Source: Pseudomonadota bacterium (lineage in GTDB: Bacteria > Pseudomonadota > Gammaproteobacteria > Pseudomonadales > Halieaceae). Taken from it: a stretch of 21,076 nt of DNA. Below, one piece after another: positions 1 through 18,475 of the stretch (the first letter of the stretch is position 1; every line of letters begins with the position of its first letter). The DNA is taken from NCBI GenBank assembly GCA_030591305.1, contig JAUVBI010000020.1, forward strand, positions 1 to 21,076. Direction: 5' to 3'. The notes below the pieces were generated by a model. That model was not told the DNA's origin. It saw nothing but the letters and a program-made list of their open reading frames with translations, and ran no database searches. Position numbers and translations under genes: made by a program.

Positions 1-233
1 ATGACCAGCATTTTGACTTTGCTTCTCAGGATGACACTGTGTCTGAATCACATGCGGAGCTTGATCTCAGTGCTCGATGGACTGCACCTGATCAAAATTA
101 TCAGGTATCGCTATGGGTTAAAAATGCTTTAGAAGAAGCCTATGCGCAGCACGCTTATCGTATTGGCCCAGGTAGCATTGGTGCCTGGAACGCCCCCAGA
201 ACCTACGGTATTACAGGCACCTGGGAATTCTAA
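1..233 (+). CDS. TonB-dependent receptor, C-terminal end (5' part outside window)
   Basis: Open reading frame entering from the left edge; complete codons start at base 3 and run to a TAA at 231-233 (about 76 residues seen). The closing residues (NAPRTYGITGTWEF) match the final beta-strands of TonB-dependent outer-membrane receptors: a conserved PRTYG segment followed by a last strand ending in an aromatic residue, which the BAM machinery recognises. The plug, TonB box and signal peptide lie outside the window, so the ligand cannot be told. A terminator follows 43 bases after the stop, and then a secreted lipoprotein acylase on the same strand, suggesting an uptake-plus-hydrolysis pair. The receptor assignment is firm as a family call; the substrate is unknown. 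Confidence 0.88.
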   Translation, partial: DQHFDFASQDDTVSESHAELDLSARWTAPDQNYQVSLWVKNALEEAYAQHAYRIGPGSIGAWNAPRTYGITGTWEF

Positions 234-276
234 GTTCTATTAAGTTGGAGAACACTTTATAGAGTAGTCTTTCAAG

Positions 277-310
277 AAGCTGGAGGTAGTAATTGCCTCC
301 AGCTTTTTTT
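277..310 (+). terminator. Rho-independent terminator after the left TBDR
   Basis: A perfect 10-bp stem (AAGCTGGAGG at 277-286 with CCTCCAGCTT at 296-305), a 9-base loop and a T run through 310. It lies between the receptor stop and the acylase start, only 37 bases before the ATG at 348. That leaves little room for a separate promoter, so the acylase is probably expressed by read-through or from a promoter overlapping the hairpin. Confidence 0.88.
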
Positions 311-347
311 GTGCTCGACAGAAACTGAGTAACAAGGGAGAAAAATA

Positions 348-3300
348 ATGAAACTCCAATCTATAATTTACCCACTCTTGGTGCCACTTCTAATCGGCTG
401 TAATACCGGTGAGCAGGGGACCAGTCCGGACAACATCGAGACGGAGCAAGTAACGATCTATCGCGATGCTTATGGCACGCCGCAGATCGTGGCAGACAGC
501 AACGCCGGTGTGTATTTCGGCTATGGCTATGCGGTGGCCTCTGACCGCCTGTTTCAAATGGAAATGTTGAAGCGAACAGCCGAGGGTCGCGTTGCAGAAG
601 TATTGGGGCAGGAGTTTGTCGAGCTCGACATACAGCTGCGTACCTCCTATGACCACCGCAGCATTACGCGCCAGCTGGAAACCCTGCCACCGGCCCAGCT
701 GGAAATACTGGAAGCGTACGCAAAAGGCTTCAATGCCCGTATCGATGAACTGACCAGCGAATTGATACCCGTAGAATTCAACGACTACGGATTTCTGCCC
801 GAACACTGGAACGCTTACGATGTTGCGATGATTTTTGTCGGCTCAATTGCTCACCGCTACTCCGACTTTAACTCTGAGCGCGACAATCTTGAATTGTTAC
901 AAGCGCTTGAGAAGAGACACGACAAAGCAACTGCCTGGCGCATATTCAACGCCAGTAAGTGGTTGCTGGATGAGGACTCCCCCACCACTGTCCCCGGCGT
1001 GCCCGGCGCTCTCCCAACACAGGAAAGACCTGAGTATTTGGACCAGCTGACGCAGACAAACGCCACCAGCCGCGTTGTACTGAATGAAGATGGCAGGTTT
1101 ATTGGCACCACCAATACCGTTGAGCAACGTGAGGCCTCCCGTGCGCGCTTCGCGGCTCAAGGCTTTAGCCACGGCCCAGAGTTCACTGGCGCAAGCAACT
1201 ACTGGGCGGCTCAGGATCTTGAAGACGCTGCAGCCGCCCTTGTCAACGGACCTCAATTCGGCTTTGGTATACCCAGTTACGTTTATGGTATTGGCCTGCA
1301 CGGTGGTGATTTCAATGTTGTAGGCAGCACTCTGCTGGCACTGCCTGCACTGCTTTTTGCCCATAACGATAATATTGCCTGGGGCAGTACTGCCGGCATA
1401 AGTGACCAGTCGGATGAATTTCTTTTAGCGTTGGACCCAAACAACCCACAGCGCTACCGTCATGACAATGCCTGGCGCGAGCTGGACGTCTGGCAGGAGC
1501 TTGTATCGGTCAAGGGGGCTGCACCGCTAACAGTAACTGCACGCCGCTCTGTCCATGGCATGGTACAGCTATACCAGCCAGAGAAGAATATAGCCTGGGC
1601 ACGGGCAAGGTCCTGGGAGGGTCACGAGTTGGCGACGCTGATGTCCTGGATATTCCTCGCCACAGACACCAACCTCGAAGACGCCCATCAGCGGATTGCT
1701 GCCATGGCCACCAATATCAACATGTATACCATGGACAAAAAGGGCAATCTTGCATATGTACACAGCGGACGCTATCCGTCTCGCGCAGAGGGCCACGACT
1801 CCCGCCTGCCAGCAGTAGGTAGTGGCCGCTGGGACTGGCGCGGTATGCGCCCCTACACCGATAATCCAACAGTGCGAAACCCGCAGCAGGGCTATATCGC
1901 CAATTGGAATAACCGCCCCGCAGCCGACTGGATCAGCTCCGACCTGTGGACCTACACCTGGAGCCGGGCTGACCGCGCCCAGCTGATATTCGACGCCCTT
2001 GAACACGACCCACAACAGAGTCAACCCAGGGCCAACATTGCCACCATTTGGGACATCAATCGCAAGATTTCCTTCGCCGACGTGAACGCCCCCTTCCTGC
2101 TGCCCTATTTATACAGTGCCTGGGAGGGACAACAGCAGACAGCCCAGGTCGCCGGCACCCTGCAAGCGTTGCGCAGCTGGGATCAACAATGGCTTATCGA
2201 TAAAGATGGCCACTATGGTCCACAGCAAACGCTTATGGAAAGCTGGCTCAAAGGCCTGCTCCGGAATGTCATCCAGGATGACATCGGTGAGGAGTACTTC
2301 TACCTCTACGCTGCCACCAACTATCCAAACAGCCCCCAGGGTGCGTCAATGGGTACTTCACCGGGTATAAAGGTATTGGTGCGAAACCTGGATCGGCTTG
2401 CCAGCGGAAAGTGGCACGAAGCCGATTATGACTTTTTTAACGGGCGGGATGCAGCTGTGGTGCTGCGTGAAAGTTTCCTCAGCGCTATCGAATCCCTACA
2501 AAAAGAACAGGGGCCGGAGTTCTCGGGCTGGCAGCTTGCCGCTGCACCCATGCAGTGGCAACCCTACAATTTTCGCGGCGTACCCCAGGCCAGAGAAAAT
2601 GCGGGCTTAAGTCTGCCTGCCTATATGAACAGGGGCAGCGAGAACAATCTGTTCGTCGCCACAGGCAAGGGCATTCTCGCCTGGGATGTGAACCCACCGG
2701 GGCAATCCGGCTTCGAGGCCCCCGATGGCAAGCGAGTACAAAACACCGCTAACCAGCTACAGTTATATGCTGACTTCGGCTACAAGGAAGTACCGTTCAG
2801 CTTACAACAAATACGTGCCAGTGCGGTTAGTACGCATACTTTACTGCTGAAACAAGAACCGCTCAAGCACTCAAAAAAACCTGCCAAAGAGGCGACTTTC
2901 ACCATGAAATCAACTGCAACTCTGCAAAAAAATCTATCTGCCGGTACCCTCTCCAGCCTCTCCCTGGTTGAGCAGTCATTGGCAAATATTGAAGAACTGA
3001 GCGAGCTTAATGCATTCATTACCATAGACAGCGCCGGTGCGTTAAGGCGAGCCAGAGAGCTCGACGAACTGCGAAAAAATGGCACACCACTGGGGGCCCT
3101 GCATGGAATCCCGATGAGTGTTAAGGATAATATTCATGTTGCCGGGCTACCCAACACAGCCGGCACCCTGGCGTTCAAAAACTTTATTCCCAGCCGGGAC
3201 GCTGGCGTTATTAAGCGCTTGAAGGAGGCAGGAGCCGTAATCGTCGGCAAGAATAATATGCACGAACTCGCCTACGGCATCACCAGCAACAACTACGCAT

Positions 3301-4295
3301 TTGGTGCTGTGAGAAATGCCTACAATGCCGACTATATCGCCGGTGGCAGCAGTGGCGGCACTGCGGTAGCAATAGCCAGCGGCATGGTCAGCTGCGGCCT
3401 GGGGACCGACACCGGAGGATCAACACGCATACCCGCCGCACTGAATGGCATTGTCGGATTCAGGCCGACTACAGGGCGTTACCCATCGGATGGACTAACC
3501 CCCCTATCAAATACCCGGGACACGGTGGGGCCCATGGCAAACAGTGTGGCGGACGTCGCACTACTGGACAGTATTCTAAGCGGCGAGACTCTGCCTGATA
3601 CTGCGATAGAATTGTCTGGATTGCGCCTGGGTGTATCGCGAAGCTACTTTTTCCAGAACCTGGAACCTGCTGTCTCTGCGCAAACTGAACGGCTGCTCAG
3701 CGCCTTGAAACAGGCTGGGGTAGAGTTAGTTGAAACAGACCTGGCAAACCTTGCCGAGATGAATGAGGCTATTGGCTTTCCAATTGTGCTGTATGAAACA
3801 GGCCAGTTACTAGAAGAGTATGCTGCAGAAAACCTGCCCGGCGGCAGCTTGCAGAGCATTACAGAAAGCATTGTAAGCCCGGATGTTAAAGAGGTAATGG
3901 CCAGTGTGCTGGAGGGCGTAATTACGAAATCAGTGTACCTTGACGCCCTGCACAAGCATCGGCCAAAGCTGCAGCAAGCCTATCGAGATTATTTCAGTGA
4001 AAACAAACTGGATGCAATGATCTTTCCCACCCTTCCCCTGACCGCCAGACCCATAGACAGCAGCCTGAATACTGTTGAACTCAATGGCGAACAGCTGCCC
4101 ACCTTCCCGACCTATATTCGCAACACAGATCCTTCCAGCAACGCGGGGATTCCCGGATTAACAATTCCGCTAGGCAGGTCCAGTGAAGGCATGCACATTG
4201 GCATTGAAATAGACGGCCCCCAGGGCAGTGATCAACGCCTGTTGGCTATTGGTATTGCAATAGAAGCATTGATAAAGCAGCAGCTGTCTTATTGA
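348..4295 (+). CDS. Lipoprotein penicillin G acylase fused in frame to an amidase-signature amidase
   Basis: Ribosome site AAGGGAG lies 7 bases before the ATG. Residues 1-18 are a lipoprotein signal (LLIG-Cys18); Asn at +2 predicts outer-membrane sorting. Residues ~30-834 are a penicillin G acylase (Ntn hydrolase). The predicted autocatalytic nucleophile is Ser283 (SNYW, start of the beta chain). It is followed by NGPQFG, YGIGLHG, AWGSTAG, the oxyanion segment ANWNN (~518-522) and ADR (~541-543), closely resembling E. coli Pac. These enzymes split N-phenylacetyl amides such as penicillin G. The equivalent of alpha-Arg145/Phe146 appears to be Arg170/Tyr171. Residues 853-1315 are a full-length amidase with the Lys926/Ser1001/Ser1025 triad. 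Both halves have normal stand-alone lengths and there is almost no linker, so two separate proteins are possible (see the junction entry). As a fusion, the amidase would be exported. Confidence 0.9.
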   Translation: MKLQSIIYPLLVPLLIGCNTGEQGTSPDNIETEQVTIYRDAYGTPQIVADSNAGVYFGYGYAVASDRLFQMEMLKRTAEGRVAEVLGQEFVELDIQLRTSYDHRSITRQLETLPPAQLEILEAYAKGFNARIDELTSELIPVEFNDYGFLPEHWNAYDVAMIFVGSIAHRYSDFNSERDNLELLQALEKRHDKATAWRIFNASKWLLDEDSPTTVPGVPGALPTQERPEYLDQLTQTNATSRVVLNEDGRFIGTTNTVEQREASRARFAAQGFSHGPEFTGASNYWAAQDLEDAAAALVNGPQFGFGIPSYVYGIGLHGGDFNVVGSTLLALPALLFAHNDNIAWGSTAGISDQSDEFLLALDPNNPQRYRHDNAWRELDVWQELVSVKGAAPLTVTARRSVHGMVQLYQPEKNIAWARARSWEGHELATLMSWIFLATDTNLEDAHQRIAAMATNINMYTMDKKGNLAYVHSGRYPSRAEGHDSRLPAVGSGRWDWRGMRPYTDNPTVRNPQQGYIANWNNRPAADWISSDLWTYTWSRADRAQLIFDALEHDPQQSQPRANIATIWDINRKISFADVNAPFLLPYLYSAWEGQQQTAQVAGTLQALRSWDQQWLIDKDGHYGPQQTLMESWLKGLLRNVIQDDIGEEYFYLYAATNYPNSPQGASMGTSPGIKVLVRNLDRLASGKWHEADYDFFNGRDAAVVLRESFLSAIESLQKEQGPEFSGWQLAAAPMQWQPYNFRGVPQARENAGLSLPAYMNRGSENNLFVATGKGILAWDVNPPGQSGFEAPDGKRVQNTANQLQLYADFGYKEVPFSLQQIRASAVSTHTLLLKQEPLKHSKKPAKEATFTMKSTATLQKNLSAGTLSSLSLVEQSLANIEELSELNAFITIDSAGALRRARELDELRKNGTPLGALHGIPMSVKDNIHVAGLPNTAGTLAFKNFIPSRDAGVIKRLKEAGAVIVGKNNMHELAYGITSNNYAFGAVRNAYNADYIAGGSSGGTAVAIASGMVSCGLGTDTGGSTRIPAALNGIVGFRPTTGRYPSDGLTPLSNTRDTVGPMANSVADVALLDSILSGETLPDTAIELSGLRLGVSRSYFFQNLEPAVSAQTERLLSALKQAGVELVETDLANLAEMNEAIGFPIVLYETGQLLEEYAAENLPGGSLQSITESIVSPDVKEVMASVLEGVITKSVYLDALHKHRPKLQQAYRDYFSENKLDAMIFPTLPLTARPIDSSLNTVELNGEQLPTFPTYIRNTDPSSNAGIPGLTIPLGRSSEGMHIGIEIDGPQGSDQRLLAIGIAIEALIKQQLSY
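2873..2932 (+). other. Acylase/amidase junction with two A7 tracts and an ATGA overlap
   Basis: A7 runs occur at 2873-2879 and 2926-2932, either side of an internal ATG at 2904 that would start a normal 463-residue amidase (MKSTATLQ). An AGAGG lies 11 bases before this ATG. Removing one A from the first tract makes the upstream frame read through ten further codons to TGA at 2905-2907, giving the classic ATGA overlap of translationally coupled genes. As given, the frame is continuous. A one-base sequencing or assembly error, a real mutation, or RNA-polymerase slippage giving both products all remain possible. The bases and frames are observed; the mechanism is inference. Confidence 0.6.
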
Positions 4296-4310
4296 TAGAA
4301 TCCACCTGAT

Positions 4311-4331
4311 TGGGGTAGGAGCCATACCCCA
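4311..4331. terminator. Possible hairpin between convergent genes
   Basis: TGGGGTA (4311-4317) pairs with TACCCCA (4325-4331) around a 7-base loop, in the 56-base gap where the acylase-amidase and the deacetylase converge. There is no T run on either strand, so it is at best a weak bidirectional terminator. Confidence 0.35.
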
Positions 4332-4351
4332 CCATAGCTATCTGGCTGCAT

Positions 4352-5467
4352 CTAGGGCAGCTTGTCCAGCAGGGCCGCAGCAGCCTCTATCTCCACCAAC
4401 TGGTGGGCTTGCAGATCCTGCCCACCCAAGGCCGCGGCCATTTCCAGAAAGGGGTCATCGGTTGCCGTTTTGATGCCGCTGAGTTCTTCCATAACAGCCA
4501 GGCCATAGAATGGAGCCGTCCAGGTGTTATAGCCACCCTCATGGGTCATTAGTATTTTTCCATCACACAGTTCATCTGCTGCCAGCATCATCTTGCGTGT
4601 CAGGTTACGGTAGCAACCACTGTGCACCTGCATACGGCCCAGTGGATCATAGGCACCTGCATCAAAACCACTGGGAATAATAATTAACTGGGGCTTGAAC
4701 CTGTGCAGTGCCGGTAATACAACACGCTCATAGGTTTCCTCGTAGGCAGCCACACCAGACCCGGGAGGCAGAGGAATATTAATATTGTAGCCCTCCCCTG
4801 CACCGCTACCATTCTCGTGTCGATATCCCGAGTCTGGTGGAAAACAATTGTCCTGATGAATAGATATAGTCAGTGCACGCGGATCCTCATAAAATGCACT
4901 CTGGGTACCATTGCCGTGATGAACATCCCAGTCAACAAAAGCAATGCGCTCCAGTCCATAGTGCTCAATAGCGTGAAAACCTGCGATAGCCGCATTACCA
5001 AACAGACAAAAACCCACCCCCTCATCCGCAAGGGCGTGATGACCGGGTGGGCGCACCAGGGCATAGGCATTGCGAACACGACCTTCCAGAACCGCTTCCA
5101 ATGCCGCCAACACGCCGCCAGCAGACAGCAGGGCAATTTCATAGCTGCCCCGCCCCATAGGGGTGAATATTCCTGCATCGCCGCCAATTCCAGCGCTCAG
5201 TACTTTTAATTTCTCCAGGTACTCCCTTGTGTGAAAGCGTAGTATTTCTTCCTCAGTGGCATCCCGAGGATCAATTATTTCCAACTGGAATGTTAAGCCT
5301 GCAACCTCCAGCAAATTTCGAATTCTACGTTTTGTCTCGGGACCTTCTGCGTGAGTATCCGGCTGAACCGGATTACCGTATGGCATTGGCCCGGCATAAT
5401 TTCCCGTGTTGTGCCACATATAAAGTTCATGACATACGAAACCGGTTTTTTTCTCTTTGCTGCTCAT
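4352..5467 (-). CDS. Class II histone deacetylase-like amidohydrolase (HDAH family)
   Basis: Zinc amidohydrolase of the bacterial histone-deacetylase / acetylpolyamine-amidohydrolase superfamily, closest by eye to the HDAH of Bordetella/Alcaligenes strain FB188. Counted from the first of three consecutive ATGs, the general-acid/base pair is His145-His146 (RPPGHH), the zinc ligands are Asp183, His185 (DWDVHHGNG) and Asp271 (GFDA), and the transition-state Tyr315 lies in EGGY. All are shifted by a constant +3 from FB188. AAGAGG at 5475-5480 is only 1 base from the first ATG but 7 from the third (5467), so the third is the likely start (371 residues). No signal peptide, so cytoplasmic. It follows an amidase gene with about 30 bases between them and is probably the last gene of that operon. 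The native substrate is probably a small acetylated or acylated amine; bacteria lack histones. Confidence 0.93.
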   Translation of the reverse strand: MSSKEKKTGFVCHELYMWHNTGNYAGPMPYGNPVQPDTHAEGPETKRRIRNLLEVAGLTFQLEIIDPRDATEEEILRFHTREYLEKLKVLSAGIGGDAGIFTPMGRGSYEIALLSAGGVLAALEAVLEGRVRNAYALVRPPGHHALADEGVGFCLFGNAAIAGFHAIEHYGLERIAFVDWDVHHGNGTQSAFYEDPRALTISIHQDNCFPPDSGYRHENGSGAGEGYNINIPLPPGSGVAAYEETYERVVLPALHRFKPQLIIIPSGFDAGAYDPLGRMQVHSGCYRNLTRKMMLAADELCDGKILMTHEGGYNTWTAPFYGLAVMEELSGIKTATDDPFLEMAAALGGQDLQAHQLVEIEAAAALLDKLP

Positions 5468-5474
5468 CATCATA

Positions 5475-5480
5475 CCTCTT
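5475..5480 (-). promoter_or_regulatory. Ribosome binding site that selects the third ATG
   Basis: AAGAGG on the minus strand upstream of ATGATGATG. Spacing is 1, 4 and 7 bases to the three ATGs; only the third has a normal distance. Confidence 0.6.
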
Positions 5481-5499
5481 ATTTTTAAGCAGTTATTTT

Positions 5500-6927
5500 T
5501 TACCCAATTGGTGCAAGCTTGGGCCAGGGCATGGCCTGTTCAAATACGGCCGCTAGTGACAATAATAGATCTTCACGACCACAGGGCGCTGCAAACTGGA
5601 TACCTATAGGCAGCCCCCCGTCACTGCGCGCCAATGGCAGCGATATAGCGGGCTGGCCGGTACAATTAAACACCGCAGTAAAAGGTGCGGGAGTGAATAC
5701 ATGGTCGGTCCAACTGCGAGCACTGAAATCGCCACCATCCGAGGCCTGCTGGCCAATGGGCCATGGCAATTGCGCTGTAGTCGGGCTGATCAGTAAATCG
5801 TAACGCTCAAAAAACTGACCGAATTCCCGACTCACAAGGTTAAAGTAATCCTGGGCATGCAATAAATCTACCGCCGACAGGGACAGACCATGTTCATGCA
5901 CCGCAAAAGTAGACTGCTCCAGGGTTGTACGGTCGGCCGAGCGGCCCGTGGCGGCACAAATATCCACCACCCAGTGGGAAATGTGAGCCGACCACAAATC
6001 AGTGTTGGCCTGAGCGAAAGCATCGGCATTCAGTTCCGGCCTAGCCTCTTCTACCGCGTAGCCCATGGACTCGCACAGCTGCGCTACCCTGTTCACCGCT
6101 GCACTGATTTCCGGGTCGACCGGTACGCCGGACCAGGGCTGTGTAGCAACCGCTATTCTTAGTGAGCGAGGTGCCTGCTTAAGACATGAGAGGTAAGAGG
6201 ACTCAGGTTGGGCTATCACGTAGGGGTCACCGATACCGGGGCCTTGCACAGCATCCAGCAAAGCAGCCGTATCGCGAACCGTGCGAGAGACACCCAGCTC
6301 GATACCAAAACCACCCAGCCCCTCAGCTGCACCGGGACCAATTGGCACCCTGCCCCGTGTAGGTTTGAGCCCTACCAGCCCACAGCAGGCTGCAGGAACA
6401 CGAATTGAACCACCACCATCGTTGGCGTGGGCCAGGGGAACAATTCCCGCTGCTACGGCCGCAGCACTGCCACCACTGGAGCCACCTGGGCTGCGCGAGG
6501 TATCCCATGGGTTTCGTGTGTCGCCCGTCAGCACCGTTTCCGTAGCAATGTTGTAGCCCATTTCAGGTGTGGCGGTACGCCCCAGGGTCACCAACCCCGC
6601 AGCGCGGAATCGAGTCATTAGGTCCGTATCAGCAGGGGCAACGTAACCCTCTAACAACCTCGACCCCATCGTACTGGCCCGCCCCTTGGCCTGTATAACT
6701 AAGTCTTTAATCAAAAAGGGAACACCAGAGAATATTGCTTCACTTGGTGCCGAAGCCAGAATTTCATCGATATCGGGAAACACTTCAAGCACTGCGTTAA
6801 TAGCGGGGTTACGCTCTTCTATCAGCCCCTGTGCGCAGTCAACCAACTCTCGGGGGCTCACTTCCCCCTCCCGCACAAGATCAGCCAGACCCAAACCATC
6901 ATATTCCATATATTCAGATTTTTTCAT
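5500..6927 (-). CDS. Amidase-signature family amidase
   Basis: A 475-residue amidase with the complete Ser-cisSer-Lys triad: Lys74 (FLIKDL), Ser150 (PGGSSGGS) and nucleophile Ser174 ([11 protein letters not shown]). The Ser-Ser spacing of 24 is that of the family. It hydrolyses carboxylic amides to acid plus ammonia or amine. There is no signal peptide, so it is cytoplasmic. GGGAGG lies 5 bases before the ATG. It precedes the HDAC-like gene closely and follows an exported amidohydrolase on the same strand after 152 bases. This suggests sequential breakdown of an imported compound: surface hydrolysis, then cytoplasmic deamidation or deacylation. The active-site family is certain; the substrate is not. 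It is distinct from the amidase fused to the acylase. Alternative family roles (6-aminohexanoate-dimer hydrolase, aryl-amidase) cannot be excluded. Confidence 0.93.
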
Positions 6928-7060
6928 TACTACCTCCCGACCAGCATTCTGTCTCTATTGGTGACGGCTAATTTCTACACTGCATGCCAACTTGCAACAC
7001 TATTAACATTGGCAATTGAAACCTTAACTGCCAGCAACACCATTTCATTAAAATTTCAGC

Positions 7061-7081
7061 AAGTGCATTGCATGTGCACTT
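7061..7081 (-). terminator. Hairpin at the end of the amidohydrolase gene
   Basis: AAGTGCA (7061-7067) and TGCACTT (7075-7081) form a 7-bp stem with a 7-base loop, overlapping the stop codon of the upstream gene at 7080-7082. On the minus strand only a loose T-rich stretch follows, so termination would be partial. It could equally be a regulator site (short palindrome) in front of the amidase. Confidence 0.3.
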
Positions 7082-8843
7082 ACCTCTTTGAATATACTAG
7101 TTTTCCCTCAAACCAGGTCTGCTCGACCTCTGTATCACTGATAGAGGTCTCCGGTATCTCAAACAAATTTTTATCCAGAACGATAAAGTCCGCAGATTTA
7201 CCTACCTCAATAGAACCGGTCAGCCCATCCAACCGCATCGCTTTTGCACCACCCAGCGTCGCAATAGCCAGGGCTTGCTGCAACGTGACTGCCTGCTCAG
7301 GCCACAGAGATTCCTCACTGTTTGTGAAGGGATTTTGTCGAGTAACTAGGGCTTCAATAGCATGCCAGGGACTCAGGTCTTTCGCCGCTGAAGGCCAGTC
7401 GGAACCCATCATGAGTTTGGCTCCAGACTGCAGCAGTTGCCTCACAGGAAAATATCGCAAGCCGCGCTCACCTATTGCCCCCTGAACTGAGTCGATGATT
7501 GGAGAGGGATACCAGATGTACGGCGATAAATCTACAGTGACATTAAGCGTGGAAAAGCGAGGGATATCCACAGGATCGATAAAGCCGGCATGGGCCAACT
7601 GATGGGGTAGGCCACTGTCACCATTGGCCTCACGCGCTGCCGCTATGGCATCTAGGGCAAGCCGTACTGACCCATCCCCCGCCGCATGAATTTTCGCCGC
7701 TATACCCGCTTTATCCAGAGCAATAAGATCTTTCTTCAACACATCAGCTGCCACCATCAGGTGACCTCTGGTCTGCTCTGGATGCTCTGGGTCAACCAGA
7801 TAGTCTTGCAGCATCAGGGCGGTGCGCGACGCGGTGGGCACACCATCAAGAAAAATTTTGACAAAACCCGTATGCAGATGTGGTGACGTATATTCATCCC
7901 GTGTAGCCACAATAGATTCAATATCCAATGGATAATCCCTGTACTCCCTCGGCGTCTGGATATTAGCCACAAGATGTACGGTCAGGCCTTCTGTCTCATC
8001 AAGTTTTCGGTATGCTTGTAAAATCTTCGGCTCGGCCCTAGCCTCATTGACGCCAGTCAGTCCAAATCGGTTAGCCTGACCCAGAGCTTCAGCCATGGCA
8101 TTGTGGTATTGGGCTTCTGTCCAGTCAGGGATAACTGCCAGCACAGGCCTTCGGGCATGTTCATACAACAGGCCATTGAGCTCGCCCTCCCTGTCACGCA
8201 GGAAAGCCCCACCCTCGGGGTCCGGGCTGTTGCGATCAATTCCAGCCAAGGCCAGCGCCTTACTGTTTACCCAGGCGTTGTGTGTTGCATCATCACTCAG
8301 GTAAATTGGGTGCTCACTGGATATGTTATCCAGCCATTTTCGAGGTGATGGCATGTCGTAATTATTGAAAAAGTCACTGGTCCACTGCCCGCCAATAAGC
8401 CAGAGATCATCTGGGTTGGCTGTAATACACTCCCGCAGTTTCTGCGCAATTATTTCCGGTGTAGCCGTAAAGGGAAAGTTGCAGTTATAAAGCGTTTTTA
8501 CACCCCCCTGCCAGGGGTGAGCATGACCATCATTAATTCCGGGCATAAGCATTCTGCCGCCCATATCAAGTTGCAGGACGTCTTTGCCACGGTATTTTTC
8601 TGCACCGCTGTTGTCCCCAACGTAGACTAACTTACCATCGCCAATAACAATCGCTTCAACCCAGGGCTCGGCAGTGTTTGCGGTATAAATTCTTCCATTG
8701 CTTATAACTGTTTGAGTGGACGTAGCCTTGGTTGTACCCCAGCTCTCCAGCGGGTTTTCTCGATTGCATGCCGTTGGCCCCAAAGCCAGAATAATGCAGG
8801 ACAGACAGAGGGGAGCTATGTGTAATCTACGCCGTAAGTTCAT
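7080..8843 (-). CDS. Lipoprotein amidohydrolase of the YtcJ / amidohydrolase-3 family
   Basis: A 587-residue metal-dependent hydrolase with a TIM barrel between two beta-sandwich parts (start ISNGRIYTAN, end GKSADFIVLDKN). Visible motifs: HxH metal ligands His107/His109 (DGHAH), Lys329 (GFVKIFLDG), His386 (KIHAAGDGS), His418 (HQLAHAG) and Asp482 (MGSDWP). Family members act on amides, imides, lactams or formamides; the substrate here is unknown. The N-terminus is a signal peptide ending in a lipobox-like PTA-Cys26, with Asn at +2, predicting an outer-membrane lipoprotein, although Pro at -3 is atypical. An in-frame ATG exists 16 codons upstream (8891), but it lies beyond the receptor's terminator hairpin. 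AGAGG, 8 bases before 8843, supports the shorter start. It pairs with the TBDR upstream as a surface uptake-and-cleavage unit. Confidence 0.92.
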   Translation of the reverse strand: MNLRRRLHIAPLCLSCIILALGPTACNRENPLESWGTTKATSTQTVISNGRIYTANTAEPWVEAIVIGDGKLVYVGDNSGAEKYRGKDVLQLDMGGRMLMPGINDGHAHPWQGGVKTLYNCNFPFTATPEIIAQKLRECITANPDDLWLIGGQWTSDFFNNYDMPSPRKWLDNISSEHPIYLSDDATHNAWVNSKALALAGIDRNSPDPEGGAFLRDREGELNGLLYEHARRPVLAVIPDWTEAQYHNAMAEALGQANRFGLTGVNEARAEPKILQAYRKLDETEGLTVHLVANIQTPREYRDYPLDIESIVATRDEYTSPHLHTGFVKIFLDGVPTASRTALMLQDYLVDPEHPEQTRGHLMVAADVLKKDLIALDKAGIAAKIHAAGDGSVRLALDAIAAAREANGDSGLPHQLAHAGFIDPVDIPRFSTLNVTVDLSPYIWYPSPIIDSVQGAIGERGLRYFPVRQLLQSGAKLMMGSDWPSAAKDLSPWHAIEALVTRQNPFTNSEESLWPEQAVTLQQALAIATLGGAKAMRLDGLTGSIEVGKSADFIVLDKNLFEIPETSISDTEVEQTWFEGKLVYSKR

Positions 8844-8851
8844 ACTGACAA

Positions 8852-8856
8852 CCTCT
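8852..8856 (-). promoter_or_regulatory. Ribosome binding site fixing the amidohydrolase start at 8843
   Basis: AGAGG on the minus strand, 8 bases from the ATG at 8843 and directly after the terminator T run. The longer in-frame start would place the first 11 codons upstream of or within the terminator hairpin. Confidence 0.65.
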
Positions 8857-8857
8857 G

Positions 8858-8881
8858 AAAAAAGGCCCGTTTTACCGGGCC
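8858..8881 (-). terminator. Rho-independent terminator after the TBDR
   Basis: Minus strand: GGCCCG, a 6-base loop (GTAAAA), CGGGCC, then six T. It lies 39 bases after the receptor stop and only 14 bases before the next ATG, so read-through sets expression of the downstream lipoprotein hydrolase. The same arrangement is seen at 277-348. Confidence 0.9.
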
Positions 8882-8920
8882 AAGCGCACATTTTGACAAC
8901 TGGACGTAAACAGGCTCAAT

Positions 8921-11592: not shown

Positions 11593-12636
11593 CTATGCGC
11601 GGAACAACTGTCTGGAACGCTCACGGTAGGCCTGGGGTGTCATACCAACCCAGGCACGAAAAGCACGACTGAATGCGCTCAATTCAGAGTAACCCAGTTC
11701 AAACGATATGCCTGACAGAGACATACTGGTATGTGCCAGATAATACTTTGCACGTTTTTCTCGCGCGAGATTTTTGGCACCTTGAAAACTATAACCTTCT
11801 TCAGCCAAGCGTCGCCTGAGTGTGCGTGGAGAAATTGCCAGGCGCTCCGCAATCACTTCTGCATTGGAGGACTCATCGGATCCACAACGAATAATTTCCC
11901 GGGAAACCTGACCTATAAATTCACCAAGCTCTATATCTGGAGAATAATATGTTTGCATCGCATTGGAAAGGACATCAAATAACAGACTATTACTTGAGAG
12001 AAATGGCTGCTGCAAATATGACCTGTCAAAAAATAATGTGTTCGAACTTTGACCAAACTTTACCGAAGTTCCAAAAAAAGATTCCAGTGCATTCGCATTA
12101 TGATCACTTCGATGGCGCAGCCAAACTTTCGTTAAAGGTACCTTCATGCGGGTGGCAATAGTAAGCATTTGCACAAGGAACGTCATCAGATACTCATTCA
12201 GTTGGACCATTTTAATATCCTCTGGATCAACCATCCTTGCACCAAACTCCGCCACAGACTGGTCAAAATTAAAATTAGTCACAATACCAGTATCAACATA
12301 TTTGTCGTAGCGGGAGAGGCATTTGAGCCCCACATCAACCGAGGGTGCCGCGAGTACAGCCATAATTAGCAGGCCGCCAACCTCATAGTGATACTGCTGC
12401 CCCATATTCATTCCCATACGGGGGTTATCAGTAATTTTGGCGGCCAATTCCAGCAACATAGCGACCTTCGGCACCGGTAGAGGCATGTCACATTCATCAT
12501 TCTCGTTCTGAGCTACATCACAGGCCTCGAAAATCGATGTGGGATCTATGCTCCTGTCCAGCAGGTAGTCGCGTACGTAGGCACTAAATCGGGGAGATAA
12601 TGTGGGTTCAAAGTCCATCAGATTCTGACAAAACAA
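11593..12636 (-). CDS. AraC-family transcriptional regulator (OruR/arabinose-binding-like N-domain)
   Basis: A 347-residue regulator. Residues ~10-200 match the ligand-binding domain found in OruR-type AraC proteins (VGGLLIMAVLAAPSVDVGLKCLSRY is typical). Residues ~245-345 are the double helix-turn-helix, with SPRTLRRRLAEEGYSF and the second HTH around ISFELGYSELSAFSRAFRAW, ending GMTPQAYR. The start is uncertain. TTG at 12636 has AGGA 5 bases upstream; ATG at 12618 (MDFEPTL) has no ribosome site but leaves a longer leader. Its end is 212 bases from the TBDR start on the same strand, and it is the most likely activator of that receptor-hydrolase operon. The effector is unknown, perhaps the transported amide or its acid product. 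Confidence 0.92.
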   Translation of the reverse strand: MFCQNLMDFEPTLSPRFSAYVRDYLLDRSIDPTSIFEACDVAQNENDECDMPLPVPKVAMLLELAAKITDNPRMGMNMGQQYHYEVGGLLIMAVLAAPSVDVGLKCLSRYDKYVDTGIVTNFNFDQSVAEFGARMVDPEDIKMVQLNEYLMTFLVQMLTIATRMKVPLTKVWLRHRSDHNANALESFFGTSVKFGQSSNTLFFDRSYLQQPFLSSNSLLFDVLSNAMQTYYSPDIELGEFIGQVSREIIRCGSDESSNAEVIAERLAISPRTLRRRLAEEGYSFQGAKNLAREKRAKYYLAHTSMSLSGISFELGYSELSAFSRAFRAWVGMTPQAYRERSRQLFRA

Positions 12637-12855: not shown

Positions 12856-14157
12856 CTAACCGCGCTTATCAATCACACGTTTGGCCTTACCCTCGGAGCG
12901 TGGAATACCACCCAGACCATGTACTTTGATGCTGGAAGAAACACCAATATACGCTTTAATCCGATACTTAAGCATTTCTGCTGCTTTTTCCTTCGCATCG
13001 GTACTGGTGGCGCCCTGAGCTAACTCGACGTTGATTTCCATCACGTCCATATTGCCCTGCTTGCCAAGTTCAATAAAATAGTGCGGAGAGAGCCCTTCAA
13101 TCGCCAGCAACTGCTCTTCTATTTGTGTAGGAAATACATTAACCCCACGAATAATCATCATGTCGTCACTGCGGCCGGTAATTTTCTCCATGCGTCGCAT
13201 GGTGCGACAACTTCCGGGCAGCAACCGTGTGAGGTCGCGAGTACGGTAGCGAATTATCGGCATGGCCTGCTTTGTCAGACTAGTGAAGACCAGCTCGCCC
13301 TCCTCACCCTCGGGCAACACTTCACCCGTGTTGGGGTCTATAATTTCTGGATAAAAATGGTCTTCCCATATAGTGGGGCCATCTTTAGTTTCCAGGCACT
13401 CCTGGGCAACACCGGGGCCCATAACTTCTGATAAGCCATAGATATCAACGGCATCTATGCCAAGCCGCTCTTCCATTTCAACGCGCATTGCATTGGTCCA
13501 GGGCTCCGCTCCAAAAATTCCCACACGCAGAGAAAGCTTGTTAATGTCTACGCCCTGACGCTCCATTTCATCGGCGATATTTAACATATATGAAGGTGTC
13601 ACCATGATAATGTCTGGATTAAAATCTCGAATCAGCTGCACCTGCCTCTCGGTCTGGCCGCCAGAAACTGGAATCACTGCACAGCCCAACCGCTCGGCAC
13701 CATAATGTGCACCAAGGCCACCTGTAAACAAACCATAGCCATAAGCGACGTGAACTTTATCGGCTGCCGTCCCACCCGCAGCACGTATCGAACGCGCCAC
13801 TACATCAGACCACACATCGATGTCACTCTTGGTATATCCCACCACCGTAGGCTGACCTGTTGTGCCACTGGAGGCATGAATACGCACAACCTCATCCATC
13901 GGCACAGCAAACATCCCGAAGGGATAGTTATCGCGAAGGTCTAGTTTAGTCGTAAAAGGAAAACGCGCTAGATCTTCCAGCGTGTTTAAATCGTCGGGGT
14001 GTACGCCATGTGCATCAAACTTGGACTTGTAGGCAGGGCATTTATTATAGGCATGAGACAGGCTCGTCTTCATACGCTGTAGCTGCAAGCTGCGTAGCTC
14101 ATCCACGCTGGCTGTTTCTATACTGTGCAGCGGTTCAATACAGGATGGTGGACTCAT
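12856..14157 (-). CDS. paaK: Phenylacetate-CoA ligase
   Basis: A 433-residue adenylate-forming enzyme that converts phenylacetate, CoA and ATP to phenylacetyl-CoA, the first step of aerobic phenylacetate catabolism; cytoplasmic. Motifs counted from ATG 14157: P-loop SSGTTG (96-101), YGLSEV (240-245), RYRTRDL with ribose-binding Asp308, hinge GRSDDMMIIRG and the catalytic-Lys region RSEGKAKR (~421-427). Length is typical of PaaK. A TTG five codons upstream (14172) is possible, but GGAAG lies 5 bases before the ATG, favouring 14157. It is divergent from paaX, so it is probably repressed by PaaX until phenylacetyl-CoA accumulates. No other paa genes are in the window. Close relatives activate other aryl-acetates or benzoates, so the exact acid is likely but not proven. 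Confidence 0.95.
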   Translation of the reverse strand: MSPPSCIEPLHSIETASVDELRSLQLQRMKTSLSHAYNKCPAYKSKFDAHGVHPDDLNTLEDLARFPFTTKLDLRDNYPFGMFAVPMDEVVRIHASSGTTGQPTVVGYTKSDIDVWSDVVARSIRAAGGTAADKVHVAYGYGLFTGGLGAHYGAERLGCAVIPVSGGQTERQVQLIRDFNPDIIMVTPSYMLNIADEMERQGVDINKLSLRVGIFGAEPWTNAMRVEMEERLGIDAVDIYGLSEVMGPGVAQECLETKDGPTIWEDHFYPEIIDPNTGEVLPEGEEGELVFTSLTKQAMPIIRYRTRDLTRLLPGSCRTMRRMEKITGRSDDMMIIRGVNVFPTQIEEQLLAIEGLSPHYFIELGKQGNMDVMEINVELAQGATSTDAKEKAAEMLKYRIKAYIGVSSSIKVHGLGGIPRSEGKAKRVIDKRG

Positions 14158-14162
14158 AGTTG

Positions 14163-14167
14163 CTTCC
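14163..14167 (-). promoter_or_regulatory. Ribosome binding site choosing the paaK ATG
   Basis: GGAAG on the minus strand, 5 bases before the ATG at 14157. The alternative TTG at 14172 has no comparable site. Confidence 0.5.
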
Positions 14168-14214
14168 AACAAGGCTTCTTTAAGCCTACTCTTAGAATTA
14201 TTTTATACACCACA

Positions 14215-14390: not shown

Positions 14391-15314
14391 GTGGAACAAC
14401 CTGCTGTTGTAAAGCAGCTCATTCAGAGCTTTGTCAGTCGCCGCCCCATGCGCACAACTTCTTTAATTATCACGTTCTTTGGTGATGCCGTTTCACAGCA
14501 TGGACATACGGTATGGCTGGGCAGTCTTATTAAAGCAATGGCGCCCCTTGGCATTAACGAGCGACTGGTGCGAACTTCCGTATTTCGCTTGGTAAAGGAG
14601 GGTTGGCTAGAATCTGAGCGGGTTGGCCGTCGTAGTTATTACCAATTTACCAATTATGGAGCCCACGAATATCAACGTGCAGCCAGGCGAATTTACGCTC
14701 TGGAAGACAGCAAATGGCCGGGGCATTGGCAAATTTTAATACCGCAAAACATACCAGAAAAGAATCGTGATAAATTTAAGCGCAGTCTGCAATGGCAGGG
14801 CTACAGGGCAATAGCGCCTGGCACCTTTGCCAAACCAGGAGACAGTGGCCACGCTCTACGAGAGACAATGGAAGAATTTGATGTCACTGATAAGGTAATT
14901 ATATTTAACGCCAACACCTCACCACTATCGTCAAACCAACTGGAACGTAAACTTGTCCATGACAGCTGGCAGTTGGAACACGTTGGCCAGGCTTACAAGG
15001 ATTTCCTAAAACACTATCAACCCTTGCTGAAGTGGTCGCAACGCAGACAGTTACTCTCACCTGAAACGGCCTATATTGCCCGCACCTTGCTCATTCACGA
15101 CTACCGCAGAATATTACTTCACGACACACCCCTACCCGACGAGCTACTACCTACCGCATGGCCCGGATCCAAGGCATTAACACTCACCAGCTCTATATAC
15201 AAAACGCTGGCCGGACCATCTATTGCCTATATTGTCACTGAGCTGGAAGCAGGCGGTGACTCTATGCCAGAGGCAGACCCATTATTTTGGAACCGATTTA
15301 ACCGTATCGATTAA
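14391..15314 (+). CDS. paaX: PaaX-family transcriptional repressor
   Basis: A 307-residue PaaX-type regulator. The N-terminal winged helix (about 20-95) carries the family signature SLIITFFGDAVSQHG, VWLGSLIKAM, ERLVRTSVFRLVKEGWL and GRRSYYQFTNYG. The central and C-terminal domains match the PaaX effector and dimerisation regions. The family represses phenylacetate-catabolism genes and releases DNA on binding phenylacetyl-CoA, the product of PaaK. The start is GTG with AAGGA 7 bases upstream; the shared frame with the signature supports it. It is divergent from paaK across 233 bases that hold a palindrome. It converges with the M24 gene with only 4 bases between the stop codons. Confidence in the family is high; repression of paaK is inferred from context. 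Confidence 0.95.
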   Translation: MEQPAVVKQLIQSFVSRRPMRTTSLIITFFGDAVSQHGHTVWLGSLIKAMAPLGINERLVRTSVFRLVKEGWLESERVGRRSYYQFTNYGAHEYQRAARRIYALEDSKWPGHWQILIPQNIPEKNRDKFKRSLQWQGYRAIAPGTFAKPGDSGHALRETMEEFDVTDKVIIFNANTSPLSSNQLERKLVHDSWQLEHVGQAYKDFLKHYQPLLKWSQRRQLLSPETAYIARTLLIHDYRRILLHDTPLPDELLPTAWPGSKALTLTSSIYKTLAGPSIAYIVTELEAGGDSMPEADPLFWNRFNRID

Positions 15315-16509: not shown

Positions 16510-17424
16510 TTATTTCTCCAATGTCCAACTAAATTCTAAAGCTTTTACCATATCAGATATTGCCCTGTTGATAGGACAGGGTACACCCAGGCCCTCCCCT
16601 ATTGTGGCAACTCCGCCATTAATGCTGTCGATTTCTGTAATACGTCTGGCCTCTACATCTTGTAGCATGCTGGGTTTGTGCAGATAGGCAACTCTTTTGC
16701 CGTAGTCAATCATCTCCTCTGGGTCTTTTTCAAGAACCACACCCAGAGCGTCCGCCACTGCCACACCTTCTTGTGCCACGGCGCTCATCAGGTCGCGAAC
16801 CTGCTCACAGTTAATTCCGTGGGGCAGACGAGTAAGCGCGGCAAGACCGTTGGATGCACAGTTAAATATAACCTTGGTCCACATGGCTCCCCGGGGATCA
16901 GCCAGAGATTCTGTCTCGTGACCACCTCGGCTTAACGCCTCAGCAAGACGGTCACATTCTTCCTGTGTAGCAGGCTTGCCATCAAAGGGGCCAATAGTGG
17001 TCAACCCTTTGGTGTCCTGGTTGCATACTCCCGGCTCGATTATATGCCCCGCGGGAAATGTTGTACCCATAATCACCCGGGGTACATACTCGGCAACAAT
17101 CTCTTCACTGCCAACACCATTTTGTACGGAGCAGACAGCGCCATCAACAAAGATATGAGCCACAGACTCCATGGCGGCTCGGGTGTGCAGGGTTTTGGAA
17201 GCGATAATCCCGTACTCACAGGGAGGAATATCAGCGGCATTGCTGCGCGCATTAATTTTTACGACGAAATCACTTTCACCGGTCAGGCGTAAGCCATTTT
17301 TATTAATGGCATCCACGTGCGCCTCATAGGGGTCATAGGCCCAGACTTCAACATCCTCAAGCCGGCCCAGATGTGCCGCAAACAGGCTGCCTATAGCGCC
17401 ACAACCGATAATACAAACCTTCAT
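16510..17424 (-). CDS. Ketopantoate reductase-family dehydrogenase, copy 1
   Basis: A 304-residue member of the ApbA/PanE family. Rossmann motif GCGAIG at 7-12, Asn103 (VQNGVG), catalytic Lys184 (WTKVIFNCASN) and Glu264 (ITEIDSINGG) are all in their usual places, so it should be an active NAD(P)-dependent 2-hydroxyacid/2-oxoacid oxidoreductase. Loss of a loop or ligand is not evident. AGGAGAG lies 4 bases before the ATG. It follows a paralogue on the same strand after 67 bases and is coupled to the M24 gene. Such context, with FAH and M20 enzymes divergent, argues for a catabolic 2-oxoacid or beta-hydroxyacid step rather than pantothenate synthesis, where panE normally stands alone or near panB/panC. 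The substrate is unknown. Confidence 0.9.
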   Translation of the reverse strand: MKVCIIGCGAIGSLFAAHLGRLEDVEVWAYDPYEAHVDAINKNGLRLTGESDFVVKINARSNAADIPPCEYGIIASKTLHTRAAMESVAHIFVDGAVCSVQNGVGSEEIVAEYVPRVIMGTTFPAGHIIEPGVCNQDTKGLTTIGPFDGKPATQEECDRLAEALSRGGHETESLADPRGAMWTKVIFNCASNGLAALTRLPHGINCEQVRDLMSAVAQEGVAVADALGVVLEKDPEEMIDYGKRVAYLHKPSMLQDVEARRITEIDSINGGVATIGEGLGVPCPINRAISDMVKALEFSWTLEK

Positions 17425-17491
17425 ATAACTCTCCTGGAAAGCGACAGTGTAAACGTCACCCTAATCATAAATAATTTTGTGTTTTTGAGCT

Positions 17492-18475
17492 CTAGTGCTC
17501 GCCCGGCTTTAGAGACCAGCCTTTTTCGATCCCCTTCACCAGGCGATACAGTGTTTCATGATAAGGAGCGGGCACACCAACGCTGTGGGCAGCGCGAACA
17601 ATAGAGCCTGTAATCCAGTCCACTTCGGTATAATTTTTATGGCGTACATCATCCAGCATGGAGGTAATATGAGCGTATACATCACTGCCGTGACTTCCGC
17701 CCTGGGTGACCGCCTTGCAATTCATGGCCCAGGGGTCGCTGCTGAGCTCAATGCCCTGCGCCCGGGCAATCGCAACGCCCTCCTCCATCATATTTCGTAC
17801 GAGATTACCAAGATCTGAAAGCTCTTCGGTGTCGGCATAAAATGGCACGTGGGGCGTATCTGTCACCGCTCCGATTGCATTCACAGCTGAATTGAAAATC
17901 AGTTTTGACCACTGCACCGGGCGTAAATCCTCATAGGCTTCACATATCAGCCCCGAGCGATTAATGAGTTCCTCTACCTGCTTGATACAGCCGTAACCGG
18001 GATTGTCGACTTCAACATCCCAGGGGCCTATCCAGGTGGGGGTGTCCAGTTCATAATCAACGTGAATGTCTGATTTTCTAACCCCGGACATAAAAGTCAG
18101 GCCAGCAATAATAGGCCAGTCACCCAATTCCCTCACCAGGCGTTCACAGCCCATACCATTTTGTATCATCATAACCATGGCATTGGGGAAACAGCCCTTG
18201 AATTTGGTCACGCTGGCTTCAACCGCTATCGTCTTGGTGGCGATAATTACCAGGTCGACATCACCCAGGTCAGCCGGGTTTGTAGATGCCAGAACACGGG
18301 CGTGCACGTCAGATTTTCCGGTGACCCGCAAGCCTTTTTCATTCAACTCCCGGGCGTGCTCCTCACGGCGTACCAAAACGGTCATGGTAATCCCGGGCAA
18401 GGCGCCAATATGGCCTACCAGCAAACTGCCAATAGCGCCGGCACCAACGACACAAACTCTGCTTATTTCTTGCAC
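17492..18475 (-). CDS. Ketopantoate reductase-family dehydrogenase, copy 2
   Basis: A 327-residue paralogue of the next gene. Rossmann motif GAGAIG (11-16), Asn106 (IQNGMG), catalytic Lys191 (QWSKLIFNSAVN) and Glu284 (YTEVDWITG) are retained. The GLRVTGKSD segment closely parallels GLRLTGESD of copy 1, so the pair probably arose by tandem duplication and then diverged. The start is GTG at 18475: an in-frame TAG sits two codons upstream and the nucleotide fold begins at residue 7, so no other start is possible. Its GGAG is 12 bases away, a long spacing that suggests weak initiation. It follows the AraC-type gene by 142 bases. The two enzymes may act on successive intermediates or form a mixed dimer (inference). 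Confidence 0.9.
   Translation of the reverse strand: MQEISRVCVVGAGAIGSLLVGHIGALPGITMTVLVRREEHARELNEKGLRVTGKSDVHARVLASTNPADLGDVDLVIIATKTIAVEASVTKFKGCFPNAMVMMIQNGMGCERLVRELGDWPIIAGLTFMSGVRKSDIHVDYELDTPTWIGPWDVEVDNPGYGCIKQVEELINRSGLICEAYEDLRPVQWSKLIFNSAVNAIGAVTDTPHVPFYADTEELSDLGNLVRNMMEEGVAIARAQGIELSSDPWAMNCKAVTQGGSHGSDVYAHITSMLDDVRHKNYTEVDWITGSIVRAAHSVGVPAPYHETLYRLVKGIEKGWSLKPGEH

Follow-up and report, generated by a model that had tools for sequence, protein, structure and literature searches.

A penicillin G acylase–amidase fusion from a Halieaceae bacterium and its probable role in arylacetamide scavenging

We analysed a stretch of 21,076 nucleotides from a Pseudomonadota bacterium of the Halieaceae (assembly GCA_030591305.1, contig JAUVBI010000020.1), hereafter the window, near the start of which one gene encodes a penicillin G acylase-like enzyme joined to an amidase. 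The gene (348–4295; positions are on the forward strand unless stated otherwise) is a single open frame of 1315 amino acids with an ATG start and no internal stops. Its product matches the Pfam acylase family PF01804 at full length (residues 34–824, 373.8 bits with a cutoff of 21.3, profile positions 1–675 of 675), followed by the amidase-signature family PF01425, also at full length (residues 873–1299, 351.3 bits, profile positions 2–445 of 445). The fusion of an acylase and an amidase in one frame is confirmed, and with it the claim of an earlier note on this DNA that two complete hydrolases lie in one 1315-residue chain.

As that note had read it, the first enzyme has the anatomy of an exported acylase of the N-terminal nucleophile (Ntn) type. 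The predicted alpha chain with its spacer (residues 18–282, 399–1193) aligns to the alpha chains of penicillin G acylase (PGA), with PF01804 beginning at residue 34, and the beta chain (residues 283–838, 1194–2861) is delimited by Pfam, structure alignments and an AlphaFold2 model. The alignment to the 3k3w beta chain starts at Ser283 (residues 283–838 against beta 1–551), and a hand count on the 1cp9_B alignment gives Asn521 and Arg543 as the equivalents of beta Asn241 and Arg263; we take these three to fill the acylase's catalytic roles, with Ser283 as the nucleophile. Among solved structures, penicillin G acylases are nearest to it in sequence. In a hand-read alignment, using what we take to be the pocket positions and their numbering, Phe24, Phe57, Ser67, Ala69, Trp154 and Ile177 are retained, and three positions are changed (beta71 Phe to Ile, alpha142 Met to Ile and alpha146 Phe to Tyr).

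The second enzyme (2964–4244) is a serine amidase with the intact triad that had been claimed for it. The Lys/cis-Ser/Ser residues of the signature are Lys926, Ser1001 and Ser1025, which presumably play the usual roles of these amidase motifs, and among solved structures its sequence comes closest to 2dc0, a "probable amidase", then to GatA, amidases and peptide amidase. This part scores 601.5 bits on the NCBIfam indoleacetamide hydrolase equivalog NF005688 (cutoff 532). An AlphaFold2 model of residues 283–1315 is mostly confident with low stretches (mean predicted local distance difference test score, pLDDT, 84.1; predicted template modelling score, pTM, 0.56), and the linker is predicted to be disordered, with pLDDT below 50 at model residues 550–568, equivalent to residues 832–850 of the chain (2841–2897). 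The model fits two folded domains joined by a flexible tether. For a cut before Ser283 the computed masses are 29.8 kDa (spacer counted) and 112.8 kDa, and the chain anatomy suggests that the amidase would remain part of the beta chain once the Ntn cut is made, in line with the earlier proposal.

A run of seven A (2873–2879) sits within the linker, exactly at the junction, and the remaining two frames close shortly after it, as would be expected if a sequencing or assembly error had added one A to a run of six and the window in fact held two overlapping genes. However, a whole-chain database search found at least 18 other proteins with both domains among the best 120 of 285 matches, 16 of them full-length (P0002–P0013, P0015, P0016, P0018 and P0019) and two lacking the N-terminus (P0032 and P0038). 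Relatives, including five in the clade of the window protein, therefore share the two-domain architecture and do not always have two separate genes. The fused relatives are 47–70% identical to the window protein, and all 16 full-length ones keep the catalytic motifs of the acylase and of the amidase. Their linkers differ in length with the frame always maintained, and the one fused relative read as DNA, a close relative from the Halieaceae metagenome-assembled genome BB37 (locus L001, 1324 amino acids), lacks a long run of A where the domains join. We reject a homopolymer artefact on these observations and regard an error of this kind as extremely improbable. When a distant fusion served as the query of a second search, the best 120 of 416 matches contained no further fusion.

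It is also conceivable that, besides the full chain, a free cytoplasmic amidase is made from Met853, an internal ATG at the amidase start (2904–2906). P0002–P0006 have Met or Val at the aligned position (the codon is GTG in L001), an AGAGG lies about 11 nucleotides upstream (by eye), and the close free amidases P0130–P0135 have no signal-like N-terminus. The ribosome-site match is nevertheless weak and not clearly retained in L001, and the Arenicella-type fusions have no aligned start at this position. We consider such a dual product unlikely; the ATG may be a relic or a secondary start.

The N-terminus, MKLQSIIYPLLVPLLIGC, is a lipoprotein-type signal (348–401) with the lipobox LIGC and Cys18, and a lipobox-like motif was matched by a regular expression of our own in 99 of the 118 acylases with a readable N-terminus. 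Because the signal ends in a lipobox, membrane anchoring is likelier than a free enzyme, most probably in the outer membrane on its periplasmic side. The earlier note had placed the enzymes at the cell surface; export stands, but the lipobox favours this anchor over a surface location. The same note had made the fusion the cause of amidase export, which need not be so, as many free amidases of the family are already signal-like: 63 of the 120 nearest have a strongly hydrophobic N-terminal stretch (by a rough hydrophobicity heuristic), and lipobox-like ends occur on the free amidases of L055, L060, L063, L077 and L113. Others, including P0130–P0135, are without a signal-like N-terminus. Within the window's amidase clade, five of six free relatives are signal-like (P0129, P0136 and P0138–P0140) and one is not (P0130, which has near-copies); P0137 falls in the same clade and was left out of this count, as its 1596-base contig may carry a cut fusion. 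Because so many free amidases have signal-like N-termini, amidase export may predate the fusion, which would then have provided a shared signal and anchor. What remains of the earlier interpretation is the two-enzyme chain, its export, the triad and the beta-chain linkage, without the surface location and the fusion-dependent export of the amidase.

Directly before the ATG lies a Shine-Dalgarno-like AAGGGAG (334–340, by eye). Further upstream, in the interval between the preceding receptor gene and the fusion gene, a strong hairpin with a T run resembles a terminator (277–310; fold z-score −4.63 for 232–350), and only about 37 nucleotides separate it from the ATG in the window. L001 has a hairpin in the same place (from 5748) with different stem letters. 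The hairpin suggests attenuation or read-through control. It is absent from the list of the consensus scanner, and a promoter and terminator scan of 1–4700 gave two promoter-like and three terminator-like sites, not above shuffled sequence.

The partnership of the two enzymes extends to genomes in which they are unfused. Three genome searches covered 140, 369 and 390 genomes with cutoffs of 1e-100 to 1e-110, keeping the top few candidates per genome and so missing weaker pairs. Unfused acylases were matched in G091, G099, G075, G106, G111, G104, G110, G002, G103 and G079 in the first search, in G480, G384, G260 and G146 in the second, and in G601, G635, G825, G628, G854, G772, G696, G551 and G511 in the third. 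A free amidase of this family lies within 6 kb of the acylase in 13 of these 23 genomes (G099, G075, G106, G111, G104, G110, G002, G103, G480, G384, G601, G551 and G511), with eight pairs convergent and five on the same strand. In Luminiphilus syltensis and seven other genomes of its family the pair is unfused and convergent, and the matched regions lie 35 bp to 5 kb from each other. The amidase is 31 kb away on the same contig in G635 and on another contig in G079, G825 and G146; none was listed in 6 of the 23 (G091, where the contig ends; G260, which has a 30% identical amidase nearby; G628, G854, G772 and G696). On one strand, G480 and G384 encode paaK, a lipoprotein-type amidase, a TonB receptor, the acylase and a second amidase. 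A third protein search considered the best 120 of 7785 matches.

We fetched 23 unfused acylase loci (L051–L059, L062, L063, L077–L079, L111–L114, L116 and L118–L121), including L063, an acylase fragment from genome G054; G146 was not fetched. Genes of the phenylacetate (paa) pathway are present in 15 of these loci (L051–L059, L062, L077, L078 and L112–L114), where the evidence in L112 and L113 is a PaaX relative only (43–44% identity). The order in L052 is paaX, paaK, TonB receptor, acylase, amidase, paaZ, paaG, a thioesterase-like gene, thiolase, paaA and paaC; paaZ, paaG, thiolase, paaA and paaC were checked with NCBIfam, paaK and paaX were assigned by similarity to the window genes, and the thioesterase label rests on position and eye, with no family passed. 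In the window, about 9 kb past the fusion gene, lie the phenylacetate-CoA ligase gene paaK (12856–14172, reverse strand; TIGR02155, 719.3 bits, cutoff 646.3) and the gene for the pathway repressor PaaX (14391–15314; TIGR02277, 276.8 bits, cutoff 264.55), and the genome represented by L001 and L064 has a PaaZ-like frame near the fusion (73% identity over 263 amino acids). Amidases with no acylase in reach are also found among paa genes, in L060, L061, L080 and L083. The neighbourhood with paa genes, which the earlier note had not picked up, gives the likely function of the acylase–amidase pair.

A further recurrent neighbour is a TonB-dependent receptor. The window edge cuts the one that precedes the fusion gene (C-terminal end, 3–233), whose last 76 amino acids are 91% identical to the 766-amino-acid receptor adjoining the fused gene in L001. 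A related TonB receptor adjoins the acylase in 18 of the 21 assessable unfused loci; L054 and L118, both of which begin at the acylase, were not judged. The acylase-adjoining receptors are 40–77% identical to those of L001 or L052, and three other receptors (from L055, L057 and the window) are 25–28% identical.

The interval between the fusion and paaK/paaX in the window holds, besides another TonB receptor and an AraC-type regulator, three consecutive amide or C–N hydrolases that face the fusion on the reverse strand (4352–8891): a histone-deacetylase-fold amidohydrolase (4352–5473; PF00850, 284.9 bits), the second amidase-signature enzyme (5500–6927; PF01425, 307.5 bits) and an amidohydrolase of the Amidohydro_3 type (7080–8891; PF07969, 308 bits). 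Relatives of two of them occur near the L077 acylase: relatives of the second window amidase (40–41% identity) lie directly 3' of the unfused acylases in L077 and L078, and an Amidohydro_3 relative is found near the acylase in L077 (50% over 342 amino acids). In L077 (4675–4688) and L078 (3987–4000) the acylase and this second-type amidase are 12 bases apart on the same strand and in the same frame, a near-fusion with a different amidase type. The AraC-type regulator (11593–12636, reverse strand) is QhpR-like at 186.4 bits, under the cutoff of 250, and two adjacent ketopantoate-reductase-like genes (ApbA/PanE) lie at 16510–18475 on the reverse strand. Elsewhere, a phenol 2-monooxygenase-like flavoprotein adjoins the amidase in L055 (7000–8907; NF006144, 779.4 bits, cutoff 560), and similar flavoprotein N-termini were seen by eye in L054, L056, L060 and L061, NF006144 having been run on L055 only.

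The fusion probably arose twice with the same domain order. Tree rows were chosen by hand (78 and 28 for the acylases, 89 and 40 for the amidases), and P0032, P0034 and P0038 were left out of the 78. In the 78-row acylase tree, the fused clade of the window (P0001–P0006) is sister to four unfused acylases, including Halioglobus P0014, with the Arenicella-type fusions placed in a separate clade. Forcing seven fused acylases into one clade was rejected (28 rows; log-likelihood 336.7 lower, approximately unbiased test p-AU 7.3e-5), which makes two origins probable. The fused proteins form two clades in both amidase trees as well, yet a single fused amidase clade was not rejected (40 rows, p 0.139). 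Two fusions in the same order are the simplest reading; the alternative is one ancient fusion with many splits.

We propose that the product is probably an exported, lipid-anchored, bifunctional arylacetamide scavenger that feeds the paa pathway. The TonB receptor encoded just upstream would likely import amides to the periplasm. The signal peptide would take the chain across the inner membrane and the lipobox would anchor it through Cys18, most likely to the outer membrane on its periplasmic side. Self-cleavage of the acylase before Ser283 would give a lipidated alpha chain of at most about 30 kDa (spacer counted) bound to a beta chain of about 113 kDa, which would carry the amidase on the flexible linker. 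Judging from families and context, the acylase would strip phenylacetyl groups off N-substituted amides and the amidase would hydrolyse primary arylacetamides such as phenylacetamide or indole-3-acetamide, so that an arylacetic acid would be the product of both sites; uptake of phenylacetate and its activation by PaaK would then supply the paa pathway, with PaaX as regulator. What we observed is the open frame, both domains with their catalytic residues, the fused relatives and, in the sampled genomes, a conserved neighbourhood; we infer lipidation, localisation, maturation, substrates, channelling, the uptake role and regulation by PaaX. More tentatively, the scavenger may have evolved convergently, with the tethered sites acting sequentially on one receptor-delivered substrate and an arylacetamidase as the natural partner of PGA; we think this stronger version somewhat unlikely.

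Several observations weigh against the scavenger reading and its double origin. No paa genes were seen in the acylase loci L063, L079, L111, L116 and L118, or in the amidase loci L081, L082, L084, L104–L110, L115 and L117, and the distant acylases of L119–L121 (38–39% identity) have neither receptor nor amidase beside them. The second receptors of L001 (34–37%) and L111 (35%) are intermediate in identity, so that receptor kinship extends beyond those adjoining the acylases. The amidase substrate is a prediction from the family name, and the free L052 relative falls below the NF005688 cutoff (515.7 against 532); the same task could be performed by the second amidase or by other hydrolases encoded close by. 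A scan of the window for the PaaX motif gave 17 matches against 16.05 expected, with no enrichment, so that the idea of a PaaX site near the fusion gene found no signal above chance. As to origin, the amidases are compatible with a single fused clade, and six unfused acylases lie inside the Arenicella-type fused clade of the 78-row tree, which suggests that fusion is not essential there; they are either true splits or effects of gene calling or assembly. No genome with an Arenicella-type fusion occurred among the 369 class-sample genomes or three genomes of the order of G480.

Two readings give the fusion or its acylase another meaning. Neighbouring genes may have merged by chance, with a gain limited to shared expression. 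Unfused relatives are common and AlphaFold2 predicts no confident overall domain arrangement, as drift would have it, but the same order was probably reached twice, the neighbourhood is preserved unfused in 13 of 23 genomes and every other full-length fused relative retains both sets of catalytic motifs; drift is thus possible but doubtful. The acylase could instead be detoxifying or signal-degrading, with a beta-lactam or quorum signal as substrate, rather than catabolic. PF01804 does include acylases of other kinds, but its best matches among solved structures are penicillin G acylases, most presumed pocket residues appear to be retained and the context is one of paa genes, and we judge this reading very unlikely.

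The natural function of penicillin G acylase was described as incompletely understood in a 2006 paper (passages of PMC1687198), and our findings bear on it. Passages of PMC9493321 regard PGA as a probable scavenger for esters and amides of phenylacetic acid and report that PaaX binds the pga promoter; in PMC3032704, a passage notes that pac replaces a restriction gene cluster. The enzymes themselves are known; what is new is the architecture and the repeated partnership. In the openly licensed full texts searched we recognised no natural acylase–amidase fusion or such neighbourhood, in agreement with the earlier note, to which no described fusion of this kind was known; the wider literature may differ. 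Side-by-side genes near paa suggest that the pair may act as one machine for scavenging phenylacetic acid amides. The probable double fusion and, in many of the sampled genomes, the receptor–acylase–amidase neighbourhood with paa genes point to a partner for the acylase, to a likely route of uptake and to a likely product, so that the scavenger hypothesis can be put to a direct test. For amide biocatalysis, the fusion provides a two-enzyme scaffold of natural origin.

The acylase half resembles the penicillin G acylases of E. coli, Providencia and Kluyvera in its full-length PF01804 match, its Ser/Asn/Arg equivalents and, judging by the hand-read alignment, probably most residues of the presumed phenylacetyl pocket, and differs from them in the lipobox signal, the C-terminal amidase and the paaK, paaX and TonB receptor genes nearby in the window; E. 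coli PGA has a plain signal peptide. The amidase half is like the indoleacetamide/mandelamide hydrolase type (NF005688) in its Lys/cis-Ser/Ser triad and in passing the family cutoff, and unlike it in being fused behind an exported acylase. The free acylase and amidase pairs of Halieaceae-family genomes (Luminiphilus syltensis, L051) belong to the same two families and lie in a paa cluster, but as separate genes, convergent in 8 of 8 same-contig pairs in the 140-genome search. The pga/PaaX catabolon of E. coli W is similar in that PGA is tied to phenylacetate catabolism (passages of PMC9493321, citing Galan 2004); there, according to passages of PMC3032704, the link is regulatory, whereas in the window it consists of neighbourhood and protein fusion, together with an amidase and a TonB receptor.

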